From the NCBI GenBank assembly GCA_027627225.1, contig CM051033.1:10154558-10218557 (forward strand): 64,000 nucleotides of DNA, written 5' to 3'. This DNA is from Congeria kusceri. Its lineage: Eukaryota > Mollusca > Bivalvia > Myida > Dreissenidae. The notes under the pieces are model-generated. The model was not told where the DNA came from. It saw only the letters and a program-made list of their open reading frames with translations, and ran no database searches. Both the position numbers and the translations under genes were made by a program. Every line of letters starts with the position of its first letter. The first letter of the stretch is position 1. This document shows positions 24,756-63,760 of the stretch, in pieces.

Positions 24756-24859
24756 TGACACTGCTAGAGCAAATATCAATTCTTTAAACCTGTAAAAACG
24801 TTCTTTAAGCTCAAAAATATTTCTGGTGACGACTGTAAGTACAAAATAACAACTGGTAA

Positions 24860-25115
24860 TCAGGCATTAATGTATGCCAGTTTCCAGCTATCCGTTGTAC
24901 TTATATAACAGTTACACAGTGTTCCCGTCAGTATGCGTAATTCTGGTAATATACCAGCTTGGCTACTCAGAATTGTTTCATCCACAGTGGATTCACCGCG
25001 TGTGTTGAACTGTTCATGCCAGTCAATAACTGATATGTTATCCAACTGTTTGACATTTTCCCGAATACTAATGCTATCAATTCGAGGACTTTGTGCTCCC
25101 GTAGCTCAGTGTATT
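24860..25115 (-). other. Open frame downstream of the helicase stop, copy A
   Basis: After a stop in the distal repeat unit, a frame reads GAQSPRIDSISIRENVKQLD, later WHEQFNTRGESTVDET and LPELRILTGTLCNC, to a TGA at 24860. It is conserved in copy B (32301-32556) with I to V and D to H changes. It looks protein-like and may be an old alternative last exon, but no acceptor or product is evident. Confidence 0.3.
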
Positions 25116-25556
25116 GCTCGATGTTATCACAAGGTCAGCTATAGCCCTCAGAATTGCATACTCAATCACTGTCCATACAGTGGTACCATGGTAACGAACG
25201 CATTTATAATGTATTTGACATTTTCCTCACATTATGACCATCAGTCAAAGTACTTTGTGCTCCTGTAGCTCAGTGTATAGTTCCATGTAATCACAAGGTC
25301 AGCTATAGCCCTCAGAATTGCATACTCTATCACTGTCCACACAATGGTACCATGGTAACGAACACATTTATAATGTATTTGAAAGTTTCCTCACACTATT
25401 ACAATCAGTCGTAGGACTTTGTGCTCCCGTAGCTCTGTGTATTGTCCTCTGTGGTCACAAGGTCAGCTATTGCCCGAAGAATTGCATAATCTATCACTGT
25501 CTACACAGTGGTACCATGGTAACGAACACATTTATAATTTCCTCACACTGTGACCA
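25087..25556 (-). repeat. Three extra copies of the helicase's last coding segment, copy A
   Basis: Units of about 165 bp each contain GCAATTCTGAGGGCTATAGC (AILRAIA) and ACACTGAGCTACGGGAGC (TLSYGS), the end of the terminal exon, plus about 90 bp of flank with TGGTACCATGGTAACGAAC. They lie just 3' of the true stop at 25557. Confidence 0.9.
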
Positions 25557-25724
25557 TCAGTCATAGTACTTTGCGCTCCCGTAACTCAGTGTATTGTTCT
25601 CTGTGGTCACAAGGTCAGCTATAGCCCTCAGAATTGCCTCCTCTTTTGGGGTCAACACTGTGTTGCCATGACAACTCCTTGAGAAAATGTCATCCAGAAT
25701 GTTGTCAAGCTCTTGGCGCAATTG
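25557..25724 (-). CDS. DHX36: Duplicate terminal helicase exon (copy A)
   Basis: Acceptor GACTTGCAG opens a phase-0 exon reading [16 protein letters not shown], then AILRAIADLVTTENN, and ending SYGSAKYYD and stop. It is intact but differs from copy B at two residues (D for H after AIA; A for T in SAK). With no upstream helicase exons 5' of copy A except through copy B, it can be used only by read-through or alternative splicing past 32998. Confidence 0.8.
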   Translation of the reverse strand, partial: QLRQELDNILDDIFSRSCHGNTVLTPKEEAILRAIADLVTTENNTLSYGSAKYYD

Positions 25725-26184
25725 CTGCAAGTCAAAGTTAAATAGGTAACAAAATGACAGAAAAACACACATTTTCCATGTGCATACTTATAATAATAGT
25801 TGGAATACATAAATAACCCCGTATTGCAAACATTGATTTTGTTTAACTGCGGAGATAAATATATGTAACAAGATACTAGTGCACACACATACATATGTAG
25901 TTAAATGTGAAATATATATACTTGGCAAAAATGACAATAACAAATACTTTCAAACAGACTATGTTGTTTGAAGTTGTTTCCTAAAATATGTAATGTGTAA
26001 TGGTCTATCGCATTTCTTAAAATATTATGTTTGCTGTTTAGACAGAAGATTGTACATTTCTAAATTAATTTTATCTTAAAAAATAGAGGCACTAATACAA
26101 GGTAACTTTTGAAATGATAACATACCACTAAAGTATCCTCATTACGGTAAGTAAAAGAATATACATATCTTTCATTTCTCTCAC

Positions 26185-26262
26185 CTTGACAAGTGTTACA
26201 GTTTCTGGGGAGGCCTTGAACTTTATCCAGTCATCAACACAGACCAGGCTTTGGCCATCTTC
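26185..26262 (-). CDS. DHX36: Duplicate helicase exon, OB-fold part (copy A)
   Basis: The 26 codons read [18 protein letters not shown] then PETVTLVK, phase 0, acceptor TTTTGTAG, donor GTGAGA. It is identical to 33622-33699. Confidence 0.85.
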
Positions 26263-26603
26263 CTACAAAACGAGATGGAGCTGACATTAGTATTAGGCCA
26301 TTAAAAAGGGTTCTGAATTTCAAATAATAACGACTTATAGAATCTTAACTTGGAAATTTTTCCAACAAGAGCGAACCAATCATAAAACAAAGCAGGTTTC
26401 AATTCTTCTACTCATAGTTTATTGTAAATAATTCTTTGGTATGAATTCTGAGACGTATGTCAATAGTAATGCAGGTTTGACACAACCCTGTTATGCCTAA
26501 ACTTACAAACCTTCCAGGCAAATATAAGAATGGGTTCAATGCTTGTTGAGCTCTTACACAAGCTCATAGAATTTACAAGGACTTTGATGACGATTAACGA
26601 TCT

Positions 26604-26846
26604 GGGTCCAGTTGCTCAAAACTTTAATGGCCGGTTAAGCTTACGGCCTGTTAACTTTAGATGTAAATAAAACTAATATTACAAGCAATTCGCGTATGAA
26701 GCATTTGACAATTATTTGAGCATATCAATTTATTTACAATAAATGCAAATTTTAAAATTTTAACATTTAATTTACATCAAAAACTTCACCCAAAAGTTAA
26801 CGGCTGTTAGCTTAATTGGCCATCAAAGTTTTGAGCAACTGACCCC
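26604..26846. mobile_element. 243-bp MITE, copy A
   Basis: TIRs are GGGTCCAGTTGCTCAAAACT and its complement AGTTTTGAGCAACTGACCCC. Inner arms share AATGGCCGGTTAAGCT and AGCTTAATTGGCCAT. Non-coding, AT-rich centre. It sits beside the LLFFGGDI exon in its upstream-coordinate intron. Confidence 0.85.
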
Positions 26847-26868
26847 TGTTTCTTATACTGGTACTTAC

Positions 26869-26943
26869 AGTGATCTTCTTGATGTCTCCCCCAAAGAATA
26901 GCAAGCTGTATGGTGTCACTACACTGCAGTCATACATCCAGAC
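26869..26943 (-). CDS. DHX36: Duplicate helicase exon with LLFFGGDI (copy A)
   Basis: The 25 codons read [20 protein letters not shown] then IKKIT, phase 0, acceptor TCTGACAG, donor GTAAGT. Copy B differs at the first residue (I) and the last (S). Confidence 0.85.
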
Positions 26944-27007
26944 CTGTCAGAAAGTAAACAAGTCACAACTAATGACATGATAGTGTACACAGTATTAGAA
27001 ACATCTG

Positions 27008-27592
27008 GCCCCCTGTTCACAAAACAAGTTGAGCCCGATTCCGATTATCAGGTTAAAGATGTACTTGAGCCAAATATTTCAGGATCAGACTCAACAATGG
27101 TGTTCACTAAATATTTGGATCAATTTTAATAATTGGACAAATATATATTTAACATAATAATAATCGTCATCCAGCATAGATTTTCTATCTGAGCTGAATA
27201 TTTGAATGAAAAACTAAAAAAAAATTGAAATATTTTATCTAGAAGAAAGGTATTTCGAAAATAAAATGAGGGGCGTCATGAGAAAACCGGTCTTAATGCA
27301 TGTGCGTAAAGTGTCATCCCGGGATGGCACTTTCCGCTTTTATGGTATTTTCTGTTTCAAGGAAGTCTCTTCTAACCATAACTCCACTTGAGCCGGAAAG
27401 TGCTGTCCTGGATCAGCCTGTGCGGACTGCACAGGCTGATCCGGGATGACACTTAACGCACATGCATTCAGACCAGTTTTCCCACGACATGCCTAAAATA
27501 TTGTTGAGATTCTGCTTATTGGAGCTAGAAGATCAAGATCCGCTAAGACTGATCTTGATCCTAGAGTTAATCCTTTATGAACACGGGGCCAG
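27008..27592. mobile_element. TIR element interrupted by a foldback element (copy A)
   Basis: Outer ends GGCCCCCTGTTCACAAAAC and TTTATGAACACGGGGCCAGG are imperfect inverted repeats. Inner GATCAAGATC/GATCTTGATC segments also pair. A foldback element occupies 27267-27493, so insertions are nested. In copy B, 34517-34868, the left arm and part of the foldback are deleted. Confidence 0.65.
27267..27493. mobile_element. Foldback element copy 2
   Basis: It runs from TGAGGGGCGTCATGAGAAAA to TTTTCCCACGACATGCC with GTAAAGTGTCATCCCGGG arms. It is nested in the TIR element at 27008-27592. Confidence 0.85.
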
Positions 27593-28401
27593 GGGGTTTG
27601 ACTCCTTTAACGGGGCATATCGACAGTATGTCACATAAACATACACATGTATTGAAACTAGATTATTTCCTATTTGTTTTCGAATGTATTGTTTCTAGTT
27701 GCAGTAACATATTGATGGAATCATTAAGAGAAATAGCGACCACTTTTTTTGACACGCAAAGTATTTTAACCTTTATGGAAGGTGTGTAATTTTATGCAAC
27801 TTTATAGGTGTGCAATTTTATGGAAGGTGTGTAAACAGTGAGTGCCAATCATGACTGCGACTTCAAATTAACAATAAGTGTGAAATATTCATTTGGGACC
27901 AACTTTTAGACTTCGAAATTATAACAATTCGAAATCAAATAAAAAAAACACATAAATTCAGGACCAGAAAACATTTCGAAACAACAAGTTCAAAAAAAAA
28001 CGTTATAATGTTCAAATGTATGCCATATTTAGATTCTTATTAGAAATATATATAGTTTATATATTTGTCTTTTATTTAACCATACAAACAAAAACACATT
28101 AATGAAACCTATAACCTATACATCGGGTATCAATGACATCAATGAATATTTCAAGATGTTCAACTTTTGTTTACTGTTTGTTTGTTTGGATTTTTTCGCC
28201 ATATTTAACATTATTGCAGTCATATAATGGCATTCATTTAACCTGCTCACACTTTTCCTGGGCAAGCTTAGCCGATCTATGCAGTTTATCATTACTAAGT
28301 GCACATACTTATGCCAGTAACTGACGACTGCCCTACTTGAATCAGATGTAGGGGGAATGGCCGTAGAAATAATGTCATGACCAATACCACACAAGTTATG
28401 T

Positions 28402-28478
28402 GGCCGGGCTAGGGTTCGAACTCACAATCCCCGGATTGACAGTCCAGCGCTCTAACAACTGAGCTAGTTGGGCCTGGC
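28402..28478 (-). pseudogene. tRNA-Asp-like sequence (tRNA-derived, not a functional tRNA), copy A
   Basis: On the minus strand TAGCTCAGTTGTTAGAGC (box A), CTGGACTGTCAATCCGG (anticodon arm with GTC) and GAGTTCGAACCC (box B) are in tRNA order. The acceptor arms (GCCCAAC against CCCGGCC) and the T stem do not pair well, so it is more likely a SINE head or pseudogene. Confidence 0.6.
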
Positions 28479-29009
28479 TCTCTTTTATTTTGTAATTAAG
28501 CAAATGAACTAAAAAAAAATTTTAATACTGTTTTAAGTGTGATAAAAAAATCATTTGAAGCATTTAAACTGTTTATTAATGAATATTTGAAATTGACATA
28601 AGTATATGCACATATCTTATCCTAATTTAATAAAGATAGTAAATAATGATGGTCTATCTAAACATTAAATGACAACACGGTAAATGTCAAACCACACCAA
28701 TTAAACTTCGATATTTATGCTAATTTTGAGTGATATATGCATTAGATTGAGTAATAATCCTAGCTTAGGTCTATCTGATTATAATGTAACTGCAAACACA
28801 GCTGACTGATTACAATTTACGTGTATTTTATTACTTTTTGATTGTGTTACAATGTTAAATCTCCACAATAAAACTAATCAGAAGTTTGAATGTCGTTAAA
28901 ATATATAACAATACAAATGTTCACATAATTTAATTGGTCCAAAAACAACACTAAATATATTGTTAAAAGTCTGTGTCTGTAAAATAAAGTTCAGCACAGT
29001 AATACATTT

Positions 29010-29243
29010 GAACCGCGTCATGTGAAAACCGGACTTAATGCATGTGCAGTCCGCACAGGCTAATCCAGGACGACACTTTTCGCCTACAGTGGATTGATGT
29101 TTAGAAGAGACTTCCTTGAAACAGAAAATACCATAAAAGTGGAAAGTGCCGTCCTGGATTAGCCTGTGCGGACTGCACAGGCTAATCCGGGACGACACTT
29201 TATGCACATGTATTAAGACCGGTTTTCTCACAACACGCCACAT
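29010..29243. mobile_element. Foldback element copy 3
   Basis: Full-length, from CCGCGTCATGTGAAAACC to GGTTTTCTCACAACACGCCA. The centre holds GTGGATTGATGTTTAGAAGA and TTCCTTGAAACAGAAAATAC. Confidence 0.85.
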
Positions 29244-29465
29244 TTCTAATTCAGTAAAATGTCAAGAATAATATTTTGACTTAAAGGTCCATAACTTTAT
29301 ATTGTCGTGTCATTAAAACAATATTAAATAGTGGTACAGTTCACATGAAAACCACTCGAGACATCAAAGGGAACAATTTTGAGATTTTTTAAGAAAACTA
29401 TATACCCCAGAGCTGGCTGAATAGGAAACTATTTTGGCCCCAATTTGACCTGAAACGCACTGCTG

Positions 29466-29515
29466 AACTTACATCTGTGGTTTTCATGATCTTGAGGTAC
29501 ACCACCCAGTAGTTC
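29466..29515 (-). repeat. Copy of a helicase exon's 3' edge plus donor (copy A)
   Basis: On the minus strand TGGGTGGTGTACCTCAAGAT, CATGAAAACCACAGAT|GTAAGT repeats the last 40-odd bases and donor of the exon at 29870-29990. The two donors are 397 bp apart and a MITE lies between them. An equivalent is at 36746-36795. Confidence 0.85.
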
Positions 29516-29523
29516 TTAAGGTG

Positions 29524-29844
29524 TAAAAAAAATATGTTTGTTTCAGGTTACCCAACCTACCCTAAAAAAATGCCCCGACCCTAGAACATTTGATTGAGTT
29601 TGTCAGATTTCTTTTCGCTTTATTTACTTTGTTCCAATAATTAAAAAATGTTGTTTTATTTTATAAATAAGTGTTATGTGTTGATAGCATGCACTTCAAA
29701 CCAATGTTAAAGGATATGTTTTGAATATTCAAATTCAGAATGCTCAAGTTGATCATTTACCAAAAAAAAATTATTAAAAAAATTCCCTCCCTACCTACCC
29801 TAATTGTTTTGGGCATGTAACCTGAAATAAACATATTTTTTACT
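29524..29844. mobile_element. TIR element between duplicated exon edges (copy A)
   Basis: Ends are AAAAATATGTTTGTTTCAGG then TTAC, and GTAACCTGAAATAAACATAT then TTTTTTAC. Inner arms share CCTACCCTA and complement. Counterpart at 36804-37131. Confidence 0.7.
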
Positions 29845-29869
29845 CCTAACACACAGTCCACAAACTTAC

Positions 29870-29990
29870 TTCTGTGGTTTTCATGATCTTGTGATACACC
29901 ACCCAGCAAGCCCGGGAGTCCCTGATATCCTTGGCAACGGACCCTGGGAACAGCTTGCACCGGCCCTCTCTGAGCTGGAACTGGATCTGA
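29870..29990 (-). CDS. DHX36: Duplicate helicase exon (copy A)
   Basis: Acceptor GTTTCCAG starts a frame completing a split serine, then [40 protein letters not shown] and donor GTAAGT. It is identical to 37159-37279. Confidence 0.85.
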
Positions 29991-30976
29991 CTGGAAACAA
30001 CATATTACCTTAGTTAAAACTAGTAGCTTCCTGATATACCGGTAATAAAGTATACCGCTTTTAAGCAGTATTAGATTCTGTCAATAAAATCTCATGATTT
30101 TGAAGTAATGTTATATTTTCCGCGGTATAAGATTTCACAATAAAATCTCCGGATTTTGAAGAAATATTATATTATGTCTATTATTTGCAATACCCAAATA
30201 GCACACCCATAACTTGCAAGTACATACGTATAATTCCATCCGTACATATCAACGATATGTCCGTAGTTGTTGTTTCAATGGCATGTACTCTGAAATTGTC
30301 GGTATTTTATTTGCAATACATATAGCACACGCAAAACTTGTTAGTACATACGTATAGTTTCATGCGAACATAACAACGGTATGCCCGTCCATAATTCATT
30401 CATTTTGGACCGTTGAAATTTCATAATATCATTACGATATGGTCTATGAAATTAGTTTATGCCGATAAATTTAACGAGATAATAAATTATGATGGTATAT
30501 GTTTTAAGGATTGCTCTTTTTGATTCGTAAGAAGTATTACATCCTGTTCATCCTCATCATATTTGTATCGATGTTTTTATTTGACTTTGTGCTCACACCA
30601 CTTATTTGCTTCGAAAGTATAGTTATACAAGTGTTGCTCTTTTCACGTTGACATGCTGAGCTGTTATCAATATGGTGTGTTGTTGGCGATGTACAGTTAA
30701 GAAGTCGCCGAATAAATCGTCCGTCTGTCTGTCTATGGAATCTGAACCATGAACTCGGATGTAAACCGTATAAAGGTGAAACCACAGATTTAAAGCAATA
30801 CCGATAGCTTGTGTATCGTTTTTAAGTCCGTTCACCTGACAAAACTTTTGTTGTTGAGAAACATTAAGAGTACATCTTGCAATCGAACTTTTGATCTAGA
30901 CAAATGGAGTCATTGAGGGAAAGGTCGATGTACATGTATCACTACTCGCATCGCCAAGGTTTCATTCATTCATTCA

Positions 30977-31155
30977 CAAGGTCGCAATGGTGTAGTAGAT
31001 ATGGTGTCCGCCTTGAGACCGGGTGGTCCCGGGTTCGATCGACCATTCAGGGAGCGTTCTCAAGATCTTTCCAAAGACAACAAGTACTGGTTTTTCCCAG
31101 GAAATGGACTCGAGAGTGTCTCTATAAGCCAAATGCTTTCGATGCAATCGAGCTA
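30977..31155 (+). mobile_element. tRNA-derived SINE, copy B
   Basis: This is the duplicate of the SINE at 23414-23595 with a three-base ACA insertion in the body and a different 3' end (ATGCTTTCGATGCAATCGAG then CTAAAGTACATG). Confidence 0.7.
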
Positions 31156-32300
31156 AAGTACATGTAAATAGGTTTCATTGTAAATATTCAGGATGTAATA
31201 CGTGTGTCGTGTAGAGAGAAAAAAGAACAAAATGCAGTAAAACAACAATTGTTTTTCATCATTAACTCATCATGACAACACACAATACAGTAAAATTAAA
31301 ATCATGAAACTGAATCATATTACAATAAAAAATCCACACATATCCTATGCACAAGTAATCATCAATCATAAATTTCACAAAACGGTTTGCTTCAGCAAAT
31401 TAAAAAACAACTATTTTCCATTTTTTGCACTTCGTTTCCATTGCATTCAATTTGAACATTAACGTATTTCGACCAGGAAATGAAGTGCAAAGACATGGCT
31501 ACAAAATCTTCTTGCAAATGCTTACGAATCACATAAAAGGCTGGCATACCGTAGTTCAAAACCATAGCAGAGGAGAACATAACATGTACTTAGTGAATCT
31601 TAATGAAAAACTTGTAACATGTACATGTATATCTCACATCGATTTCTAAAAAAACAGTTAAGTCTTGACTGCATTTTACTTGCACTAAGACAAGAAACGT
31701 AAATAACAGCCAAATGAGCTATCATCAATGTTGCCATAGTTACATGTTTTGTTGTTGTTACGTCACCATGTTTACAAATGCTTTTCAATACATCTTATTC
31801 CCACAGAGATGTTACAGCAACCAAGAGCGAGATCATAAAGTGAACTCTGGCTACCTTGAAGTGCGGCAAAAAAAACAGCTGGTTCTCAAAATGGCCGGTT
31901 TTGAAACAAACGCTGAATGTTTTTCTATGGTTCGTACATCTTTTTTTCCGCTTTTCAACCCAATAATATGCTAATGTTGTGGCCCAAAATTCCATGTAAT
32001 TACTTGTTTCATTTCAAGACTAGAGCGTTTTATCAAAAAAAGTTATTGAAGGTACAGTGTGTGCAGGTGTGTTGCCCACTTGTAGATCTCGCAACATTTT
32101 TTCGCATTTTAATAGTTTGAAGACAAGTTCATACCATTAAATAGTTATGACTATCAATATGCAGTTTAGTCTTACTCTTACACAATAGCCAAGTTTGACA
32201 CTGCTAGAGCAAATATCCATTCTTTAAACCTGTAAAAACGTTCTTTGAGCTCAAAAATATTTCTGGTGACGACTGTAAGTACAAAATAACAACCTGGTAA

Positions 32301-32556
32301 TCAGGCATTAATGTATGCCAGTTTCCAGCTATCCGTTGTACTTATATAACAGTTACACAGTGTTCCCGTCAGTATGCGTAATTCTGGTAATATACCAGCT
32401 TGGCTACTCAGAATTGTTTCATCCACAGTGGATTCACCGCGTGTGTTGAACTGTTCATGCCAGTGGATAACTGATACGTTATCCAACTGTTTGACATTTT
32501 CCCCAATACTAATGCTATCAATTCGAGGACTTTGTGCTCCCGTAGCTCAGTGTATT
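32301..32556 (-). other. Open frame downstream of the helicase stop, copy B
   Basis: This is the counterpart of 24860-25115, with the frame kept over about 85 codons. Only two or three residues differ. Conservation here may simply reflect recent duplication. Confidence 0.3.
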
Positions 32557-54100: not shown

Positions 54101-57100
54101 GACCTTGTTATTGGACCTAGGGACATGGTTCTTGTGCACAACACACGGACTCAATATGCTTGGCACTTCTGCAAAGTTATTTTAAATTCCTTCCCCACTG
54201 GACAAAAATTTGCTCCAGACTGGGTCTATGGCTTAAATTGTTATATTTGATGTTCGACCTTTTAGTGTGACCTTGACCTTGAACGTATGGACTTGGTTCT
54301 TGCGCACGACACACAGCCTCACCATGGTTAACACTTGTGCCAAGTTAATTGAAATTCCTTTTATGCTGGACAAAATTATGCTCTGGACATGGTCTATGGC
54401 TTAAATTGTTATATTTGACCTTTGACCTTCACATGTGACCTTGACCTTGGACCTAAGGACATGGTTCTTGTGCGCGACACACTGTCTCACCATGCTTTAC
54501 ACTTGTGCAAAGTTATTTGAAATTCCTTCTATGCTGGACAAAATTATGCTACGGACAGGGTCTATTCCTTAAATTCTTATATTTGACCTTTGACCTTTAA
54601 GTGTGTCCTTGGTCTTGGACCTAGGGCGAAACACCATCTCATTATGCTTAACATTTCTGCCAAATTATTTGAAAATCCTCCAATGCTGGACAAAGTCATT
54701 GTCCCGACAAGAGTCTGAACTTATGTATATACGTACACACGTACATACATATATACCCACGGACAGGGTAAACACTGTATGCCCCCCCCCCATAATTGAT
54801 GGTGGGGGCATAAAAAGCTCCTACCAATGTGTAAATAAAGACAAACACCGTCCAGTGATTTTTTTCCTTATATAACAGGGTCCGGTAAAAGGTCCCATTC
54901 CCAATACCAATAAAAAAAATTCCCAAATCTGAAGTGACAAAATCCTAAATACATGTACACAGAAAAATTACATAAATCAAATTTGTAAATAGGGAATTAT
55001 TTGATTTGTTATTAATAAACACCATTAAAATCCCCAAAGTTTAACCAATATAACACTAGTATAAATAATTCATTAAATAAATTTCTTTTTTTTAAAGTTT
55101 CCCAATTAGCATGTTTTCACGACGAACAATTCCCAATTTGATGGGTACAGTACCCATTTCCAAATCAGAGAAAAAATCGCTGCTGTCACCAAATCCTCGT
55201 ACCTTCTTGTGCATGGAAATATACCAGATCAGCTGGTATATAAGCTCTGTGTCGACCTTACTGAAGTCCAGGCTCTGTAGCTGCTTTATGGTGTGCTTCG
55301 AATATCTATAAATAGTAACAATATGTGTATATACAGTACACGCCACACGAAACCCGCAAAGTTCGCGATATGCGACAAGCCGATTTTATAGCAAATCGCA
55401 GTGCGCTCGCTCGCGATGTCACAAATTTTCACTAATTCTAATACAAGTTCGTCGCGAAATCTCGCGATGGGGCCGCCAGTCAATCTTTTGCGAATCGTTG
55501 CAAACTTTCCTGGCGTCGCTTCGCAAATTTTGATTCAAGACTCGTCCAGGGTTTTACACGGCGTGTACTGTAGGAAATAATTCAACCGTAAAAGCAGGCT
55601 TATAGTATTATTAAACTAGGGGTCATATAGTTGTTATTGTATAAATATATGTCATTTTTTATTAACATTTTATACCGATATGCGTGGAACACCTGAACTG
55701 TGCATAGAACGTCATTATCTGGTTGACTATCCCTTTAATATGATAGTGACAAAGACAATAAAAAAGAAAAAAAAAGCTTTCAGACACTTTGAATAAATAT
55801 TTATTCTGCCTCTTAAACTTTGACACTGGATTTTGTTAAGTGTCCAAAAATATACATTAAATATGCTATATTTGGTTCCCAAGCCACACCCATACCTCCT
55901 CCCTAATGTAAGCCACACCCATCCCTCCTCCCTAATGTAAGCCACACCCATCCCTCCTCCCTAAGGTAAGCCACACCCATCCCTCCTCCCTAATGTAAGC
56001 CACACCCATCCCTCCTCCCAAATGTAAGCCACACCCATCCCTCCTCCCAAATGTAAGCCACACCCATCCCACCTCCCTAATGTAAGCCACACCCATCCCT
56101 CCTCGTTAATGTAAGCCACACCCATCCCTCCTCCCTAATGTAAGCCACACCCATCCCTCCTCCCAAATGTAAGCCACACCCATCCCTCCTCCCAAATGTA
56201 AGCCACACCCATCCCACCTCCCTAATGTAAGCCACACCCATCCCTCCTCCCTAATGTAAGCCACACCCATCCCTCCTCCCAAATGTAAGCCACACCCATC
56301 CCTCCTCCCTAATGTAAGCCACTCCCATCCCTCCTCCCTAATGTAAGCCACACCCATCCCTCCTCCCTAATGTAAGCCACACCCATCCCTCCTCCCAAAT
56401 GAAAGCCACACCCATCCCTCCTCCCTAATGTAAGCCACACCCATCCCTCCTCCTTAATGTAAGCCACACCCATCCCTCCTCCCTAATGTAAGCCACACCC
56501 ATCCCTCCTCCCTAATGTAAGCCACACCCATCCATCCTCCCTAATGTAAGCCACACCCATCCCTCCTCCCTAATGTAAGCCACACCCATCCCTCCTCCCT
56601 AATGTAAGCCACACCTATCCCTCCTCCCTAATGTTGCAATGATATGTGGCGCATCGTGATAAAACCGGTCTTAATGCATGTGAGTAGTGTCGTCCCAGAT
56701 TAGCCTGTGCAGTCCGCACAGGCTAATCCAACACGGCACTTTCCGCCTACAGTGGATCTATGTTTAGAAGAGACTTCCTTGAAACAGACAATACCATACA
56801 AGCGGAAAGTGCCGTCCTGGATTAGCCTGTGCGGACTGCACAGGCTAATCTGGGATGACACTTTACGCACATGCATTAAGACCGGTTTTCTCACGACGCG
56901 CCACATATAAATTTCTCCAAACATGTAATCCAGATGCTGAGTGTAGAAAGACTGTTGGCGAGAAAAGGAAAGAAACCAAAATCAAGGGAACTACAGTGCA
57001 AAATTTTCTAACAGAAAGGACACAACCATTTGTAAACCAGGAGTGTGGAAATATCACAATTATTCACTTGTCAGCTGACAAGTTCGTTGCAAAAATCTTC

Positions 57101-60100
57101 TTGTCCGCAAGTAAATGGCACTTGTCCAAGTAAAACCATCAGTCTGCAACCTTCATATGTATATTTTGTAATATAAATACACGTATTACTGTATTTAAGT
57201 ATTTCAATGGAATATAATTGTGTCTTTCTTTAACTAAGTAGTGCCGGATAAATTAATAAATTCTCAGCAGGAACTTTTATGTTTAATAAACATGTCAATC
57301 TGGACAGTCATTGACCGTGATGTGACAGAGAGCACAGATTTGCATTTTCGTTTGTTTGATTCTTCACACCATTATTCTACTTGTTTGCTATCTGAATTGA
57401 ATAAAAAACAATCCATTAATGTTAAAACGCATTGATGAACAGTAGCAACATTCAGAAACGTCATTGTGAGATTAACGCCAGTATAAGAAAATTAAATTAC
57501 TGCTATTTGTTTCAAAAGTAAAGCTACCGGATTCATGGTCCGAAAAACTAGCTTGACGAATGTTAGACAGTCATATTCTAGGCTCAAACTATAGACATGT
57601 GCGTTTTTTCCAAGTGAAGTAATTCATTCTATACATCAAGCGTGACGTCACTGCGTTTATCTGACCTCTATACTAGGAACTGATAACTATCCATATTTGG
57701 CTAAATGTTCATACACAAAGATATAGTCTGCGGAGGAATGAAATAATTTCCAAACAAGGACAATTTCAGAAGCGACACCTGGTGGACACAATGGATGTAA
57801 TTAGAATGCAGGTGACGGACCATACCATGATGGCCGAGTCCGAACGGTTCAGTAAATTTGAACAGACTTGAATGTAATTGATTTAATATTACATAAATTG
57901 GTAATTGGTGATTACTGCGCATACATTTTCGATGTTTTTATTGATTAGAATACTATTTTGACCACAAGTCAGATATTATACTAACGAACAACGACCCATT
58001 TAAAGCTATCAAATTAGTCGTTATGGTTTGGCCCGTCATGTAATTAAACTGTTTGACTCGTCACAAATTTGCGGATACCAGAACAAAATATTTGAGTGTG
58101 CGATGCTTTAGTTTGCACCAGGGAAAGACGTGTTCATTTTATCTAGTTTTTATACATGTTTTATCATCCTGTTACACTGATTATTGCACTTGTCCGCGGA
58201 CAAATTGACAGGAAAAATTGATTCGTCTGACAGTAAAATTACCCGTGTCGAACGAGTGGAACATATGATTTCCCCACCCCTGTGTAAACCGAAGGGACAC
58301 AATCAATTGTTTGAATGAAACTGAATTTCTGGGACACAATTTTTACACAAGACAAATCAAACAACCCTACTTTCAATATCTTGGTAGATATATAGGTTTG
58401 TATGCAAACTACTTAATATGCACAAGAGTCAACAAATTCTGAATGGGCCTAAACTGCCAATGGAGCGTATAAATTTGGGGGTATCAATTGTTAGTGCTTC
58501 GTAGCCTGCAAAGTAAAAACAAGTTCAAGCAATTAAATCTCTCGAAATCGCCCTACTAGATAGTCTAATAATATACAGGAACATGTTGTATTTAAACTAT
58601 TGCGAGTTGGGCTTCATATCTTGGGTGGTGTGACATCATTTCCCTGACCTCTTGTTGGTGTTGACTCCGCCCTGGAGGTTTCGTAGCCACACCCCTCTCT
58701 CCTCCCTCTCCCGCTGGGCATTCCCGTCCCTGCGTCTCAGCTGGCGGGCCTGCATTGTGTGTGGGGCATCGTACCTGTGGATGAACAGAAACAAAGTGGT
58801 GTACTTTGTCAAGTTTTCTCGACTATCAAGCCTGCATTGTGTGCAAGGGCCTTGTAGCGATGAAACAACCCAAACAAAGCTTCTGCATGGCCTCTTAGCT
58901 GCGAAACAATAAAAACACGCATTTACTACTTTTAAGTGCCAAACAAATGCATAAAAAAATTAAGGAAGCTTGGCTGGCGAGTTTGCATCAGCTAAGGTGC
59001 CTCGTACCTGTGGACGAACAGAAAGCAGTATACTTTTTTTGGTTGTCAAGCCTGAATACTGTAAGCAGGGTTGTCATTAAGATTTTTTCAAGGAGGCTCA
59101 ATGACCATTGAGGAGGCCAAAGCCCTAGTGAACTAGGGGGTCTAGGTGCATGCTCCCCCAGAAATGTTTTTGAAATTTAGATGCAAATTCCTAGCCAGGA
59201 CTTACTCTACCATTCGTCAAATAAGCCAATGGCTTAAATTTTCACTACTTGGCTAAAAAATTTCCATTTGGCTACAACTTTGGAGTAGGATTTCACTGTT
59301 GTATGGTAAATTTGGCTAAAATAAATTTAAACGGACGGAAGCCCTGCTAGCATTTGAGCAATTTTGGACACATGATTCATGATAGTTTGACCTATGAAAT
59401 TTACCCTTTTATACTTAATTTTGAACGTTCAAAATTTTATAATCAATTATAGAAATAACACCAAAAAAATAAAGCTGTCTACTTTTGTGTGATTTTTTTT
59501 TTGACTCGACTTTTTGAATTCATTAGACATTTTTAAAATTATTTTAATAGATTGAACAACAAGTAGATTGAATAGATTAATAGTATAACACTTTTATTTT
59601 TTATATAAACATCCACAATGCATCGTAACACATTATAAAATGCATTTTCGGCAATGATTTTTTGGGGGGGAATTCGAAAATTTAAATTATATATTCATTA
59701 TATTTTGTTCATTATTAATTCTTTTTTTTTATCAATAAAACACTGCATTCAAATTACCTTGCAATTATTTTATCCGATAAGAACTGAAAAAACAACAAAA
59801 TCCGTTAAACTCATGAGTTATAAATGATAACACCTGTTAAAACTAAGAAGCGTAACAGCATGACGTCATCAGTTAGATGGGCTTCCAAATATGCAAGCTA
59901 AAGCAATTGTGTCGGTTTGACTTCAAATGTCTTTGATGTTACTGCTGAACTCTGGCTATCGTCTAGCAGTTTATACATTTAGCAGTAACCCCATATAACA
60001 TGCTTAGCACATGGTCAGTGTGAAAAACATCAATCAGTACTACTATAACTGAACAACACAAGCACCGTCGATAGAGCATTAGTGAATTAGCGTTCTTGGA

Positions 60101-61546
60101 AAAAGTCAGGGTGTGAAACAAATCAAAATGTAGTTCTGTTGCATTGCATCAATTGGAGATTTAAATGGTGGTGACGAAATACACGTCTTTGAATTAAAAT
60201 GGAAACTGTGTTACGAGGGAACACTTATTGGAAATTAACATGATTATTACATTCAATATGGATTAGTGTGTGTTGTTGTTAAAGGCTGGCTTTCACTTTC
60301 AGAACAAGGTACACAATAATTTATTTTTATTTCTTTGAAAATTTGAGCCGACCAATTACTCATTTGAAACGGTCAATTTGGCCGGCGGCCGGCTCTTAAT
60401 GACAACCCTGTGTGAGGGGCCTTGTAACTGTGAACCAACAAGTGTGAGGGGCCTTGTAACTGTGAACCAACAAGTGTGAGGGGCCTTGCAACTGTGAACC
60501 AACAAGTGTGAGGGGCCTTGTAACTGTGGACCTGTGTGAGGGCCCTTGTAACTGTGGACCTGTGTGAGGGGCCTTGTAACTGTGGACCTGTGTGAGGGGC
60601 CTTGTAACTGTGAACCAACAAAAACAAAGCAGTGCATATTTGTCATTACTTACTTATGCACAGAACTGCACCTTTACAAAAACTTGACTAAGTAACTATG
60701 TTAAGTACAGATACATTTTGTTATCTTGAAGTTGCTTGAAAGATGGCGCACATATCCAAAGATGGCGCATCCAAAAAGACTCTTAAATTAGTAATAAATC
60801 TGAGTGTGTTTTGGCAATGGTCCAGACTTTCTAGTCCTGAACGAAGTCACGAAACAAAATAGGTCAAACAGTCAGATTTACCAACAAAAAATAAAATAAT
60901 AATCAAATAAACAGTTCAGGAGATTCGTGCATCCGTCTATTGCAAGTGTACTTACTGAAGAAGTTCTATCACATCTTCCAACAAAAACTCTTCCACAGGA
61001 AAAGTGTAGCCGGGTATGTTGAACATTGGACAATTGTCTGAAAAATAGATTGCAAAGAAATGTTAAGGCACATGATAAACAACTACACTTGCAAATATTG
61101 CACTGAACTTGATTAATGCAGGTTGATCTTAAAAAAAACAACTGTGAACTTGCAACAACTTTACTTGGATCATGCGAAAAGGACTTTGTTTAATACGTTG
61201 CCTTTATGAAATAATACGTAGAAGCCAAAAGGTTTGATTTTGAAAAAATCCATGTCATTGTGCAAAACTTTCCCCAGAAAATGTCGAAAAATTCCACTTC
61301 TTTTTTTATTATTTCAGCAATTTTAGCAGTCACTGGCTATTTTTGGCTGCTGACACAGTAAACTACATTTTGAACTCACTAAAATACTTGGAGAAAGCCT
61401 CTGCGTTCAGCGTTGCGCTCATCAGGACCAGTTTCAGGTCGGATCTGCAGGTCAGGATGTCCTTGAGAACAATGATGAGGAAGTCTGACAGCAGGTCACG
61501 CTCGTGGATCTCGTCCAGGATGATGTGTGTGGCGTGAGATAACTGC
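32998..61546 (-). CDS. DHX36: DEAH-box helicase, DHX36 (RHAU)-like, 3' part of gene
   Basis: Eighteen exons (each listed separately) join in frame to 672 residues and a stop. All introns have GT/AG ends and all phases match. DHX36-type enzymes are ATP-dependent 3'-to-5' helicases that unwind G-quadruplex DNA and RNA. Seen in order: DEIH box (motif II), MSATLNAE (III), [28 protein letters not shown] (V), RQRRGRAGR (VI), winged-helix and ratchet region ([32 protein letters not shown]) and OB-fold ([18 protein letters not shown]). The [21 protein letters not shown] and VDDWI context fits DHX36 better than DHX29 or DHX57. The N-terminal glycine-rich and DHX36-specific motif and motif I must lie past 64000. 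The last four exons occur twice (25.6-30.0 and 33.0-37.3 kb). Introns are full of copies of exon edges. Confidence 0.88.
33622..33699 (-). CDS. DHX36: Helicase exon q (copy B)
   Basis: Reads [18 protein letters not shown] then PETVTLVK, phase 0, donor GTGAGA. Identical to copy A at the base level by eye. Confidence 0.93.
34119..34361. mobile_element. 243-bp MITE, copy B
   Basis: Duplicate of the MITE at 26604-26846 with the same ends. Confidence 0.85.
34384..34458 (-). CDS. DHX36: Helicase exon p (copy B): LLFFGGDI
   Basis: Reads [20 protein letters not shown] then IKKIS, phase 0, acceptor TCTGACAG, donor GTAAGT. It differs from copy A at both end residues. Confidence 0.93.
34592..34768. 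mobile_element. Foldback element copy 2 in duplication copy B, 5'-deleted
   Basis: Only the part from CCGGGATGGCACTTTCCGC to TTCCCACGACACGCC remains. The deletion joins GAGCCAAATATT directly to CCGGGATGG. Confidence 0.8.
35685..35762 (-). pseudogene. tRNA-Asp-like sequence, copy B
   Basis: Duplicate of 28402-28478, unchanged in boxes A and B. Confidence 0.6.
36294..36525. mobile_element. Foldback element copy 3 in duplication copy B
   Basis: Counterpart of 29010-29243 with small private deletions (CATACAAGTGGAGTGCC). Confidence 0.85.
36746..36795 (-). repeat. Copy of a helicase exon's 3' edge plus donor (copy B)
   Basis: Same as 29466-29515. The donor GTAAGT is kept. In this copy it is downstream of the exon used by the main gene. 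Confidence 0.85.
36804..37131. mobile_element. TIR element between duplicated exon edges (copy B)
   Basis: Counterpart of 29524-29844, with an 8-base insertion (CACTGATA region) and a TTGTTTAATCC change at the right end. Confidence 0.65.
37159..37279 (-). CDS. DHX36: Helicase exon o (copy B, used by main gene)
   Basis: It completes a serine and reads [20 protein letters not shown] then [20 protein letters not shown], phase 0 out, donor GTAAGT. LFPGSV matches the LHP.SV position of relatives. Confidence 0.92.
37470..37800. other. Intron sequence, nothing seen
   Basis: AT-rich single-copy sequence between the right edge of the large duplication and exon n. No element ends or open frames worth naming. 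Confidence 0.4.
37846..37933 (-). CDS. DHX36: Helicase exon n: OB-fold start
   Basis: Reads [20 protein letters not shown] then IRKLPKNKW, acceptor GTTTTCCAG, donor AG|GTGCGT, phase 2 out. [10 protein letters not shown] is a strong DEAH/RHA signature. This is the last single-copy exon. Confidence 0.93.
38046..38443. mobile_element. Element with GTCGCCTGACG / AGTCAGGCGAC ends
   Basis: The left end ATGTGTCGCCTGACGCCGG and right end CGCCTAGTCAGGCGACACA are inverted. The interior has TTACAAAGGGCAATAACTCC and ends with GGACGCCGCCACCGCTGACA, a typical mollusc dispersed-repeat layout. Inside the intron between exons m and n. Confidence 0.6.
38444..39925. other. Intron sequence with minor repeats
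   Basis: It contains TATGCCCTCCGTAGGGGGCC near 38742 (end of a dispersed repeat) and a 28-bp two-copy tandem, ATTTTCTAGATAAAATGCAA then TACT, at 38992-39050. No gene. Confidence 0.4.
39926..40672 (-). repeat. Seven tandem copies of the exon m donor edge (about 100-115 bp units)
   Basis: Each unit repeats AGGGAGAGACACATTAACCA, GAGGCCAATGTCAACTCT and the donor region. Units start near 39926, 40026, 40134, 40234, 40336, 40446 and 40557. The unit near 40446 keeps a perfect CTCTG|GTAAGAAC donor. Others read TAGGAAC. Open minus-strand frames in the array are a by-product. Confidence 0.9.
40673..40772 (-). CDS. DHX36: Helicase exon m
   Basis: Reads [20 protein letters not shown] then [13 protein letters not shown], acceptor AATTAAG, donor G|GTAAGA, phase 1. 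Its second half is repeated seven times at 39926-40672. Confidence 0.9.
40957..41150. repeat. Compound trinucleotide microsatellite
   Basis: Runs of (AAT)n, (ATT)n, (CTG)n, (CTA)n, (AAT)n and (ATC)n follow one another and end about 50 bases from the exon l donor. Open frames of leucine or isoleucine here are artefacts. Confidence 0.9.
41200..41277 (-). CDS. DHX36: Helicase exon l
   Basis: Reads [20 protein letters not shown] then SDSTLV, phase 0, acceptor GTTTCTTCAG, donor GTACAT. A long microsatellite lies just 3' of the donor. Confidence 0.92.
41490..41660. repeat. Two-copy intronic tandem repeat
   Basis: GGTAATTTCTAAACT...TAAAATGCA and AAGTTTGAAAC.TGTA followed by AAGTGTGTAG occur twice, about 85 bp apart. 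Confidence 0.7.
41937..42023 (-). CDS. DHX36: Helicase exon k
   Basis: Reads [20 protein letters not shown] then HITLVKAYS, phase 0, acceptor CTTCTCAG, donor GTAAGT. SDH..L..A is conserved in this family. Confidence 0.92.
42150..42410 (-). repeat. Dispersed repeat family copy 3 (inverted)
   Basis: On the minus strand it begins CCCCCGATCAAAGATGGCGG then GGTATATTTGG, with GGTCGATCTGTCAGGAGACC. It belongs to the family at 14475-14890. Confidence 0.65.
42462..42635 (-). CDS. DHX36: Helicase exon j: ratchet (HA2) region
   Basis: Reads [20 protein letters not shown] then [20 protein letters not shown] and [18 protein letters not shown], phase 0, acceptor TTTTTAG, donor GTAAGA. LGKHLA..P and [10 protein letters not shown] are family signatures. 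Confidence 0.95.
42622..42765 (-). repeat. Short copies of the exon j acceptor edge
   Basis: AAGGGCATTCTAAAAATAGA at the exon is echoed as AAGGCATTCTAAAAATATA (42651) and AAAGGCATTCTAAATTTAGA (42737). On the minus strand each reads T-rich then TAGAATGCC, i.e. the acceptor and first codons. Confidence 0.65.
42779..42955. mobile_element. Foldback element copy, 3'-truncated
   Basis: It begins ATGTCGTGGGAAAACCAGGC and has GTAAAGTGTTGTCCCGGGTC, the palindrome CAGTCCGCACAGGCTG and GTTTAGAAGAGACTTCC. It breaks off after GTCGTCCCCAATTAGGG where the exon i array begins. Confidence 0.85.
42960..43602 (-). repeat. Eight tandem copies of the exon i donor edge (81-82 bp units)
   Basis: Each unit reads, on the minus strand, GCAGCTGTAGAGAGGGCCAT, TGTCAACTTACAAGATCTG and GTATGGGCTTAGT.ACCCAAT. 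The exon's own last 13 codons are therefore reproduced. Most copies keep GT at the donor; two have ATATGG instead. Small differences (AGGTCCTG, TAGCCC) distinguish copies. Confidence 0.95.
43603..43701 (-). CDS. DHX36: Helicase exon i
   Basis: Reads [20 protein letters not shown] then [13 protein letters not shown], phase 0 both sides, acceptor CTTGCAG, donor GTATGG. The donor half is the seed of an eight-copy 81-bp array downstream. Confidence 0.92.
43980..44540 (-). repeat. Dispersed repeat family copy 4 (inverted)
   Basis: On the minus strand it starts CCAAGATGGCGGTGTATATT and holds two to three units with AATATC..GGCCAAG, GGAGTTATGGCCCTTGATT and CTCCAACAGTTTTCAT. Confidence 0.65.
44575..45081 (-). 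repeat. Array derived from the exon h donor edge
   Basis: The exon end and donor (GCCTTACCGTCAAG|GTAATG) recur as GCCATACTATCAAG|GTAACA near 44691, GCCTTACCATCAAGTTAACA near 44751, and more diverged units at about 60-68 bp spacing. A homogeneous 69-bp block with CCGATACTTCTGAGGCAAGG is repeated three times at 44780-44970. Confidence 0.8.
45082..45199 (-). CDS. DHX36: Helicase exon h: winged-helix start
   Basis: Reads [20 protein letters not shown] then [19 protein letters not shown], acceptor CCCTCCAG, donor GTAATG, phase 0 out. Its donor edge is echoed many times at 44.58-45.08 kb. Confidence 0.93.
45715..45970. repeat. 23-bp minisatellite, 11 copies
   Basis: The unit is CACTGACGGTGTATATCCC with ATAC or GTAC. 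Four adjacent units share the CGTACC variant. Because 23 is not a multiple of three, all three minus frames stay open and give spurious ORFs. Confidence 0.95.
46113..46319. mobile_element. Foldback element copy 7 area (near exon g)
   Basis: Ends TATGAGGCATGTCATGGGAA and TTCCCACAACATGCCTCATA are inverted. The right end lies about 40 bases from the exon g donor. Confidence 0.85.
46360..46503 (-). CDS. DHX36: Helicase exon g: motifs V end and VI
   Basis: Reads [20 protein letters not shown], later [20 protein letters not shown] with the arginine split over the phase-2 donor CG|GTGAGT. The two arginines of QRRGRAGR are the ATP-contacting arginine fingers. Confidence 0.95.
46598..46770 (-). repeat. 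Degenerate units related to the exon g acceptor edge
   Basis: ATGACATCTATGGTCGATGG and ATGACATCTACTGTAGTTGG resemble the exon start AACGTCATCTATGGTAATGC, followed by AAAAGCATTTTGAT.CAA. Units are about 63 bp. Similarity is moderate and the assignment less certain than for exons c, f, i and m. Confidence 0.5.
46880..49740. other. Large AT-rich intron part, no gene seen
   Basis: Between exons f and g. No open frame, TIR or tandem repeat that I can support. Short inverted AT segments at 48850-48985 (TATTTTATTTCACGAG and GGCATAAAATAAAA) are too weak to call. Confidence 0.5.
49871..49991 (-). CDS. DHX36: Helicase exon f: motif V
   Basis: Reads [20 protein letters not shown] then [19 protein letters not shown], acceptor TATTTCAG, donor AG|GTTGGT (a weak +4/+5). 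The first about 30 bases and the acceptor are repeated seven more times upstream in the intron. Confidence 0.9.
49967..50445 (-). repeat. Eight units (exon plus seven copies) of the exon f acceptor edge, about 57 bp
   Basis: On the minus strand each reads CCATATTTCAG|C..CTTACAGAATT then ATCCCCCTTCATTC, so a pyrimidine-rich acceptor plus the exon's first bases are repeated. The four nearest copies are almost identical; distal ones (50258 onward) are longer and diverged. Confidence 0.93.
50667..50942 (+). other. Unassigned 91-codon open frame antisense in a helicase intron
   Basis: After TTATTTTCAG an open frame reads [20 protein letters not shown], with [19 protein letters not shown] and [20 protein letters not shown], then ends in TGA where a dispersed repeat starts. 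Amino acid content is protein-like. It may be an exon of a transposon or a captured gene fragment. No family is recognised. Confidence 0.3.
50925..52025. repeat. Dispersed repeat with about 300-bp double units
   Basis: It alternates TTTTTAGCTCTAGTGGCCAT then TTTGTGCAGTGAGGCGGA and a TTAGCTCTGGCGGCCATCTT variant, with GATTGATCAAGAACTTTTGA and ATATGACAGGAATACAAAAC. Four to five rounds. It ends near CCCAACAACCGCCGGCCCAA. Non-coding. Confidence 0.7.
52567..52657 (-). CDS. DHX36: Helicase exon e: motif IV region
   Basis: Reads [20 protein letters not shown] then [10 protein letters not shown], acceptor CATTGCAG, donor GTAAGT, phase 1 out. GAILVF.PGW is diagnostic of DEAH/RHA helicases. Confidence 0.92.
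53160..53834. other. Intron sequence, nothing seen
   Basis: AT-rich. Short open frames only. A two-copy repeat of about 66 bp (CCCAAT.TATCCCTTTTT...AAATATTTC) lies to its left at 52672-52805. Confidence 0.4.
53835..54815. repeat. Dispersed repeat, about six units of about 165 bp, ending in TATGCCCCC palindrome
   Basis: Units share CTCCGGACATGGTCTATGGC, TTGACCTTTGACCTTTA.GTG and GACATGGTTCTTGTGCACGA. The right end TATGCCCCCCCCCCATAATT then GATGGTGGGGGCATA is an inverted pair and relates it to the element start at 6798. Confidence 0.7.
55203..55305 (-). CDS. DHX36: Helicase exon d
   Basis: Reads [20 protein letters not shown] then [14 protein letters not shown], acceptor TTTATAG, donor GTACGA. 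The KVD..LI..LI.YI pattern is the start of RecA2 in DHX36 relatives. Confidence 0.9.
55880..56634. repeat. 29-bp minisatellite, about 26 copies
   Basis: The unit is TAAGCCACACCCATCCCTCC then TCCCTAATG, with CCAAATG, CCACC and TTAATG variants. A five-unit block of variants is itself repeated (55985-56120 and 56160-56240), which suggests higher-order duplication. It ends against a foldback element. Confidence 0.95.
56643..56907. mobile_element. Foldback element copy 8
   Basis: Full-length: TATGTGGCGCATCGTGATAA to TTCTCACGACGCGCCACATA, with both internal CAGTCCGCACAGGCTAATC-type palindromes preserved. Confidence 0.9.
57038..58282. mobile_element. 1.24-kb hAT-like non-autonomous element with target duplication
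   Basis: Ends AGGAGTGTGGAAA and TTTCCCCACCCCTG are inverted. TGTAAACC flanks both sides (left TGTAAACC at 57031-57038, right at 58283-58290), an 8-bp duplication as expected of hAT elements (one base may be shared with the end). Inner CACTTGTC/GGACAAGTG arms match the small element at 6166-6342. No transposase frame. Confidence 0.75.
58649..58774 (-). CDS. DHX36: Helicase exon c
   Basis: Reads [20 protein letters not shown] then [16 protein letters not shown], a charged insert that is variable among DHX36 relatives. Acceptor CCACAG, donor AG|GTCAGG. Its 5' edge is the seed of repeats at 58830-59065 and 60411-60632. Confidence 0.88.
58830..59065 (-). repeat. Copies of the exon c acceptor edge, left part
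   Basis: The exon edge GCATTGTGTGTGGGGCATCG then TACCTGTGGATGAACAGAA recurs as GCATTGTGTGCAAGGGCCTT then GTAGCGATGAAACAAC, and as AAGGTGCCTCGTACCTGTGG then ACGAACAGAAAG at about 58993. An element insertion at 59066 splits this array from its continuation at 60411. Confidence 0.85.
59066..60410. mobile_element. 1.35-kb TIR element inserted in the exon c array
   Basis: Ends CAGGGTTGTCATTAAGA and TCTTAATGACAACCCTG are perfect 17-bp inverted repeats. The interior is AT-rich with no transposase. The GGCCGGCGGCCGG near the right end is an isolated GC palindrome. Confidence 0.8.
60411..60632 (-). repeat. 26/32-bp minisatellite, continuation of exon c edge array
   Basis: The unit TGTGAGGGGCCTTGTAACTG then TGAACCAACAAG (or the short form ending TGGACC) is the exon c edge TGTGTGGGGCATCGTACCTG then TGGATGAACAG in degenerate form, seven units. 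The last unit continues into AAAACAAAGCAGTG as at exon c. Confidence 0.85.
60956..61037 (-). CDS. DHX36: Helicase exon b
   Basis: Reads [20 protein letters not shown] then DVIELL, phase 1 in and 2 out, donor CA|GTAAGT. This is the conserved linker from RecA1 to RecA2 in the DEAH/RHA family. Confidence 0.92.
61380..61546 (-). CDS. DHX36: Helicase exon a: DEIH and SAT motifs
   Basis: Acceptor CACTTTCAG, then one base completing a split codon, then [20 protein letters not shown], later [18 protein letters not shown] and [16 protein letters not shown], then donor A|GTGAGT. DEIH coordinates Mg-ATP. SAT couples hydrolysis to unwinding. Confidence 0.92.
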
Positions 61547-61612
61547 CTGAAAGTGACAATTGCATGAAAAAAATGCTTGAAAGTAACACAGCCTTTTTGT
61601 CTGAAGAACTAC

Positions 61613-63688
61613 TTAGTGCTGTTCCAGGAAACACGAGGGCCCTGAGGGCCCTAGGACGCTCATCTAAGACCTTGTAACCCAATTAGAATTTGCATCTCCG
61701 AGGTGTCGTTTATTTTTATCCCAGGGGCATAATTTGAAAAATCTTAACAAACATCTGGGCCTTGCGGTTTCAGGTAAAGCTTTTTAAAGTCATTCTGCTA
61801 TTTAAGTCTATATAAACCATGTGACCCTTGGGGTGTGGCCAGATTCGACCCCAGGGGCATACTTTGAACAATGTTTGGAGAGGACCACTATGCAATGTTA
61901 CGTTCTACATATGGGAAAGCTGAGGGCCTTGCCGTTTCAGAGGAGAGGATTTTGAAAGTCATTTTGCTTTTTAAGTCTGTATAAACCATGTGACCCCCTG
62001 GGCGTGACCAGTTTTAACCCCAGGGGCATAATTTGAACAATATTTGTAGAGGACCACATATACATACCAAATATGAAACCTCTAGGCCTTGCGGTTTCAG
62101 AGGATTAGAATTTTAAAGTCATTTTGTGATATAAGTTTATATAAACCATGTGACCCCTGGGGTGTGGTCAGTTTTGACCCATGGGGCATAATTTGAACAA
62201 TCTTTCTAGAGGACCACTATAGGATATTACATGTACATACCAAATACAAAACCTCTGGGCCTTTCAGTTTCAGGAGAAGATTTTTAAAGACAGTTTGCTA
62301 TTTACGTTTATATCAACCATGTGACCCCCAGGGCGTGGCCAGTTTTGACCTCAGGGGCATAATTTGAACAATCTTTGTAGAGGACCACTATACGATGTTA
62401 CATACAAATAAGAAACCTCTGGGCTTTGCGGTTTCTGAGGAAAAGATTTTTAAAGTCATTTTGTTATTTAATTGTATATAAAACATGTGACCCCTGGGGC
62501 GTGGCCAGTTTTGACCATAGGGGCATAAATTGAATAGCATTTGTAGAGGACCACTATAGGATGTTAAATACCAAATATGAAACTTCTAGGCCTTGCAGTT
62601 TCAGAGAAGAAGATTTTTAAAGACACTTTGCTATTTAAGTCTATATAAACCATGTGACCCCCAGGGCGTGGCCAGTTTTGACCCCAGGGGCATAATTTGC
62701 ACAAACTTTGTAAAGGACCACTAAAGGATGTTACAAACCAAATATGAAACCACTGGGCCTTGTGGTGTCAGAGCAGATTTTTAAGGTCATATTGCTATAT
62801 ATTCTATATAAACCATTTGACCCCCGGGCGTGGCCTGTTTTGACCCCAGGGGCATAATTTGAACAAACTTTGTAAAGGACCACTAAAGGATGTTACAAAC
62901 CAAATATGAAACCACTGGGCCTTGCGGTTTCAGAGAATAAGATTTTAAGTCATTTTGCTATATATTCTATATAAACAATGTGACCCCCGGGGCGTGGCCA
63001 GTTTTGACCCCAGGGGCATAATTTGAACAATTTTTGTAGAAGACCACTATAGGATGTTACATACCAAATATGAAACCTCTGGGCCTTGTGGGTTCAGAGG
63101 AGAAGATTTTTAAAGTCATTTTGCTATATATTCTATATAAACCATGTGACCCCCAGGGCGTGGCCAGTTTTGACCCCAGGGGCATCATTTGACCACTCTT
63201 TGTAGAGGACCACTATTGGATGTTACATACCAAATATTAAACCTCTGGGCCCTGCTGTTTCAGAGAAGATTTTTTAAGCTTGCACTTTTAAAATCTATTT
63301 TTAGCTCTGGTGACCTACATATGCAGCGGACTGTAAAACAATTTCAACAACTTTGAAAGAGGGTCACCCAATGATAATTCCTGTGAAGTTTGGTAAAAAT
63401 CTGCCACGTGGTTTAGGAGGAGATGTTGTTTGAATGAAAAGTCGAAGACTGTCGCACGCACGCACGCCCACACGACGGACAACGGGCGATCACAAAAGCT
63501 AACCATGAGCACTTTGTGCTCAGGTGAGCTAAAAATGTGATGGTTGGTGGAATGCCTTTCCAAAAATGGGGTACTACCAACACAACTTTTTTTTTTTTTA
63601 TCCTTTCTATCACCCCCCACCAACCAAATGATATTTTACATCGGCATTCCACCCCCTCGTCACCTTTTTTCCTGGAACAGCCCTAATA
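61613..63688. mobile_element. Outer TIR element containing a second element
   Basis: TAGTGCTGTTCCAGGAAA at the left and TTTCCTGGAACAGCCCTAA at the right are inverted. Just inside the left end, the tandem-core element 61634-63535 is inserted. The remaining outer body is GATGGTTGGTGGAATGCC...GGCATTCCACCCCCTCG. Confidence 0.65.
61634..63535 (-). mobile_element. Tandem-core element, copy 2 (inverted)
   Basis: The left end ACGAGGGCCCTGAGGGCCCT then AGGACGCTCATCTAAG and right end GGCGATCACAAAAGCTAACC then ATGAGCACTTTGTGC and TCAGGTGAGCTAAAAA equal the ends of 8812-9745 in reverse. The core differs: about nine units of about 170 bp with GGGGCATAATTTGAACAATC, GTAGAGGACCACTATAGGAT and CATGTGACCCCTGGGGCGTG. 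Confidence 0.75.
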
Positions 63689-63689
63689 A

Positions 63690-63760
63690 TGTGGTGCATG
63701 ATAACTGTCTGAAAGTGAGAGTGGTTTCACTTATTTTTCTGCAAAACTACTTTGTTATAT
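63690..63760 (-). repeat. Copy of the exon a acceptor edge
   Basis: GTGGTGCATGATAACTGTCT then GAAAGTGAGAG matches GTGGCGTGAGATAACTGCCT then GAAAGTGACAA at exon a (61527-61560), and both continue to a TTTTTCTGCAAAACTACTT / TTTTTGTCTGAAGAACTACTT segment. The nested elements sit between the two. Confidence 0.75.

Follow-up and report, generated by a model that had tools for sequence, protein, structure and literature searches.

Copies of exon edges, some of them in minisatellites, in the introns and 3' flank of a DHX36 orthologue from Congeria kusceri

Eight of the 36 exon edges examined in a DHX36 orthologue from Congeria kusceri have a copy of themselves in the neighboring intron or 3' flank, and these copies exceed chance similarity. 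They are best explained, and we hold this with good but not full confidence, as minisatellites, together with a few single copies, that were founded by a unit lying by chance across an exon edge. Below we describe the gene and its edge copies, consider whether edges are special as sites of duplication, and set the locus beside known systems from human and potato.

Results

On its minus strand, from 61546 to 25557, the window—by which we mean the whole 64-kb stretch of DNA that was analyzed—contains the 3' portion of a DHX36 orthologue. Closest matches among solved chains and among named proteins agree on this identity: a query composed of exon pieces matched Dhx36 best among solved chains (E 1.7e-121), and the nearest named protein is a DHX36-like model from Dreissena polymorpha (P0001), which shows 91% identity over 88% of the spliced protein query. 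Eighteen exons (a to r) could be placed. Their acceptors are AG and their donors GT, and joining them at the exon-proximal sites gives a single open frame. Since exon a (61380–61546) encodes the DEIH motif and no exon upstream of it was recognized in six-frame pieces within the window, the N-terminal part of the gene presumably lies beyond position 64000, outside the window.

Edge copies were sought with 70-nt queries laid across each junction, at 35 splice edges and the stop-codon edge, and their significance was taken from a one-sided local alignment, with 1000 dinucleotide shuffles per edge as the null. The edges at which a neighboring copy beat all 1000 shuffles are the acceptors of exons c, f, and j, the donors of exons h, i, m, and o, and the stop codon/3' flank of exon r. 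A preliminary description of this DNA had reported recurring edges at about ten of the eighteen exons, with donors and acceptors both involved; eight of the ten stand, as does the participation of both classes of splice site, while exon a is a borderline case (P = 0.002, 36 edges having been tested, for one weak and distant acceptor-edge match of 29 bp at 83%, located 2.2 kb away at 63690–63718) and exon g falls away. The latter exon (46360–46503) has only a weak 41-nt alignment to a repeat at 46592–46716, and a copy of its edge in this window was not accepted (P = 0.34 for the acceptor).

The edge copies, which like their exons lie on the minus strand, take several forms. At three edges—the acceptor of f and the donors of i and m—the functional splice junction itself lies within a tandem array by the limits that TRF sets. 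Exon f (49871–49991) has its functional acceptor edge in an array at 49963–50445 (TRF) built from 57-bp units, the outer ones measuring 64–73 bp, each joining intron acceptor to exon f 5' edge, with six extra copies listed. The donor edge of exon i (43603–43701) belongs to a 75-bp array at 42957–43641 (TRF, 92% matches) that repeats the exon 3' edge and donor in eight extra copies, and the donor edge of exon m (40673–40772) to an array of ~110-bp units at 39932–40726 (TRF 40011–40726, extended by self-alignment; 75% matches) that repeats exon m 3' edge and donor in seven. Exon h (45082–45199) is a weaker case: its donor edge is weakly repeated downstream, where a diverged array of ~69-bp units occupies 44605–45096 by self-alignment, and the h donor is inside this array only after such widening because TRF's own limits, 44660–44989, stop short of the exon. 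TRF rows at f, i, and m and near h consist of head-to-tail units of roughly 10–100+ bp, as is characteristic of minisatellites. In the last exon, r (25557–25724; second copy 32998–33165), a 164-bp array at 25049–25670 (TRF 25088–25644, extended by self-alignment; second copy 32490–33111) repeats the coding end, the stop codon, and the 3' flank. The remaining edges have fewer neighboring copies: the acceptor edge of exon j (42462–42635) is copied at 42656 and 42743, and the donor edge of exon o (29870–29990; second copy 37159–37279) once, at 29466–29507 (and 36746–36787). The acceptor edge of exon c (58649–58774) has one nearby copy at 58973–59024 and a detached array of ~32-bp units resembling it at 60407–60621, 1.6 kb upstream of the exon (TRF and junction queries). 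The repeated unit had been described as always spanning an exon boundary, with its splice site, beside the exon concerned. As to the splice site, "always" is too strong: the r array has a stop codon and 3' flank in its place. The c array, moreover, is 1.6 kb away from its exon.

The makeup of the arrays offers hints about their origin. Their units consist of contiguous exon and intron bases and therefore arose from DNA and not from spliced RNA. The tandem duplication across exon boundaries already proposed in the preliminary description is supported for donors and acceptors alike. In the i array, GCAG opens the unit on the exon side, and the same four bases follow the end of the array on the intron side; these direct repeats, in this one array, fit the proposed slippage or microhomology-type repair. 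Percent matches among the edge arrays range from 75 (m) to 94 (core of h), and such unlike values fit events of different age.

Comparison of gene models from a relative may add a further edge. Two D. polymorpha models, P0001 and P0002, given for a contig of equal length, are 99% identical over 364 residues, and the peptide of the exon g 5' edge occurs nine times in P0002 (one copy cut short) versus once in P0001, which has no repeated 10-residue word. Judged from these protein models, the simplest reading is that D. polymorpha has an array at the exon g acceptor, which was read through by one gene predictor. Among the titles that literature searches on Dreissena or bivalves listed, none concerned splice-edge arrays in Dreissena.

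Self-alignment of the locus, a check that had been suggested for it, displayed the arrays at edges, extended several of their limits, and also revealed that exons o to r are present twice. This direct duplication of ~7.4 kb (about 22609–30190 and 30181–37481) aligns in pieces of 2031, 1740, 673, and 2895 bases at 95.6, 98.5, 98.8, and 98.0% identity, and both sets of exons, far and near, read open. Repeats of 126 bp are found at its left end and at its junction. Close by, 21535–21958 and 22647–23070 are 100% identical over 424 bp, with a third copy at 30219–30640 (95.8%); the identical pair may reflect recent conversion or an assembly effect. The ~7.4-kb duplication may be either a real tandem duplication or an unmerged haplotype, the latter because its copies differ by 1–2% over ~5.3 kb and, in the piece of 2.0 kb, by 4.4%, which is near the heterozygosity of 2.4% given for the quagga mussel in PMC6796509. 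This resemblance is also what might lead one to view the arrays themselves as assembly artifacts. We find that barely conceivable, since the array copies are mutually diverged (75–94 percent matches), which misassembly of one sequence would not yield, and since a D. polymorpha gene model has a like array at g.

Whether edges are copied more often than other positions was assessed within this gene, with an outcome that depends on the counting. Of the gene span, 22.8% is taken up by tandem arrays under TRF limits and 24.9% under merged limits; a splice edge is crossed by none of 10 or 11 among these 14 arrays. Merged limits were obtained by joining TRF rows by hand and widening several of them with self-alignment, which is how the h donor comes to lie inside an array; the array set excludes rows whose period is below 20, as well as the second copy of the 7.4-kb duplication. 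Counted per position, there is no excess: eight edges have local copies versus 8.74 expected from intron positions (24.3%), and an earlier version, in which edge a passes and edge o fails, gave 8/36 edges versus 949/3467 intron positions, or 630/3103 outside edge arrays. Rotation of the exon pattern over the arrays is equally flat, with four touching a splice edge versus a mean of 4.55 (merged limits) and three versus 4.29 (TRF limits).

A different picture emerges when every array is counted as one founding unit, a null that is regarded as the fairer one for the origin of edge copies. By edges, 8/36 then compares with 2.6 expected (P = 0.0036), or with 2.1 when edge arrays are left out (P = 0.0009), and three stricter cut-offs leave 7, 6, and 5 edges versus 2.4–1.1 (P 0.003–0.016); this amounts to a 3–5-fold excess over four cut-offs (P 0.001–0.016), in a test that takes its weights from merged array limits and whose binomial treats edges as independent. 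By arrays, the count is 4/14 versus 1.31 (P = 0.032) with merged limits and 3/14 versus 1.29 (P = 0.13) with TRF limits, and adding short periods back to the latter (18 arrays) again gives P = 0.13. One explanation would be that exon edges are real hot spots, where higher GC, pausing, R-loops, or microhomology of splice signals seed tandem duplication. Besides the founding-unit excess by edges, this would agree with the GC content of the exons (50%, versus 37% for the window) and with the array that D. polymorpha seems to carry at another edge of the same gene. We nevertheless consider it unlikely. The per-position excess is absent, edge arrays are unremarkable in GC (0.36–0.53, versus 0.18–0.55 for other arrays), and the odds are lowered further because h drops out and the array-level P rises to 0.13 under TRF's own limits. 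Moreover, this is a single gene, selected for showing the pattern, its 36 edges are not independent, and conservation of the exon side should, it can be argued, keep old copies recognizable and so inflate the count at edges. For these reasons the founding-unit excess is a lead but not a result, and enrichment at edges is unproven.

No exon lies wholly inside an array, versus 3.64 expected by rotation with merged limits (P = 0.016; five part-overlaps) and 3.26 with TRF limits (P = 0.027; four part-overlaps). This suggests a selection filter: absence of exons wholly within arrays, alongside partial overlaps, fits the removal of duplications that disturb exons and the survival of those that spare one exon copy.

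The fate of the copied splice sites was followed in a listing of extra copies with identity cut-offs of 62% for donors and 58% for acceptors. The idea that every unit has its cognate splice site is borne out at f (6/6 extra copies keep the dinucleotide), c (5/5), j (2/2), and o (1/1) but not at i (6/8), m (6/7), or h (0/1); outside this listing there are weaker matches, three at c, one at f, and one at h, the last of which keeps GT. Splicing probably uses the exon-proximal copy as a rule, which would leave the remaining copies as decoys that are for the most part neutral or carry a weak cost. A role in splicing regulation or in protein length variants, for which selection would have kept the repeated sites, is conceivable above all at exon f, where five upstream acceptors share their last 15 intron bases with the functional acceptor. 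Use of four of these would keep the reading frame open (+57, +114, +171, and +228 nt). Retention of AG or GT in most listed extra copies is in line with such a role, which we nonetheless think very improbable: a stop codon would follow from using any of the distal copies listed for i, m, h, o, c, and j, or the two outermost at f, the D. polymorpha model P0001 is free of the repetition, and no protein with a translated exon f array was found among 4195 candidates, a search that does not exclude such a protein. The decoy sites and exon-length variation envisaged in the preliminary description are possible, as the four open f acceptors illustrate.

Several other features of the window deserve mention. 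In its left 24 kb, where six-frame reading by eye gave no firm gene model, a 104-bp array on the minus strand (19234–19612) has AAGAAG before GTAAGT in some units and, going by this motif, may contain the donor edge of another gene. On the plus strand, eight near-identical 78-bp units at 5443–6065 stay open and encode repeats of 26 residues within an open stretch of 299 codons. For the corresponding 299-aa ORF (5330–6226), none of 7997 candidates proved to be a protein relative at E 1e-4. Two ORFs at 12452–13662 may be remnants of a non-LTR retrotransposon. Self-alignment also brought out a dispersed element that aligns with itself in reverse complement, with copies at 42779–42954, 46112–46326, 56642–56908, and elsewhere; one copy directly adjoins the end of the exon i array and another that of a 29-bp array at 55881–56634, and a pattern of this short element had no exact match in genome or viral contig collections.

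Discussion

An origin of these minisatellites, and of the few single copies, from units that lay across an exon edge by chance accounts well for the observations, through a sequence of events that can be outlined as follows. Local tandem duplication, by slippage or by repair between short direct repeats—the mutation mechanism that we infer behind the arrays—would strike introns, edges, and flanks alike. A duplication that crosses an edge would survive because one complete exon and one splice site remain, the extras coming to lie in intron or flank, whereas one that swallows or interrupts an exon would be removed by selection. Later unequal exchange would have expanded some of the arrays. Edge arrays and intron arrays may thus both be products of ordinary local DNA stuttering, with edges possibly struck somewhat more often.

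A bolder view is that exon edges in dreissenids are true hot spots of array birth, so that many genes have ladders of splice sites that turn over between relatives and provide new exon-length material, for example at f. Although we see this as improbable, its implications would be considerable. Splice-site ladders would be common and fast changing in these genomes, gene predictors would be misled by them—as the D. polymorpha model with nine exon g edges suggests—and the spliceosome's choice between neighboring sites that are nearly identical could be examined in a natural setting. If edges are not hot spots, the locus is still instructive, since it illustrates the filter that selection may impose on tandem duplications near exons: arrays overlap exons in part but contain none whole.

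The preliminary description knew of no named feature type for such arrays, a claim that does not survive comparison with known systems. Human CBS has a 31-bp VNTR, c.1444_1467+7(16_21) (PMC2630376), which is likewise a head-to-tail array; its name implies a unit that extends across a donor site, from exon into intron. It differs in affecting one edge of one gene, with length variation measured in people, whereas several edges are affected in the mussel gene. The same gene is the site of c.844_845ins68, a 68-bp duplication of an intron/exon junction, which the text of PMC2630376 describes as a donor and the title of the 2002 paper that it cites as a 3' splice site. Here too a junction is duplicated, and in CBS one of the two competing sites is strongly favored and normal mRNA is kept; unlike the mussel copies, which were examined as DNA, this is a single duplication with measured splicing. 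A survey of genes in human segmental duplications (PMC2812944) reports variable internal tandem repeats where exon meets intron; these too are minisatellites that may alter splicing, although they vary between paralogues and are backed by transcripts, in contrast to one locus with seven splice edges and a stop edge in the mussel. In a potato RdRp gene, a tandem genomic duplication also crossed an intron-exon boundary, but there an intron was gained (PMC4974935; PMC3443670), whereas the mussel copies lie in existing introns or in the 3' flank. The feature type is therefore already known, from human CBS and from segmental duplications; what seems to us unusual is the number of edges affected in one gene.
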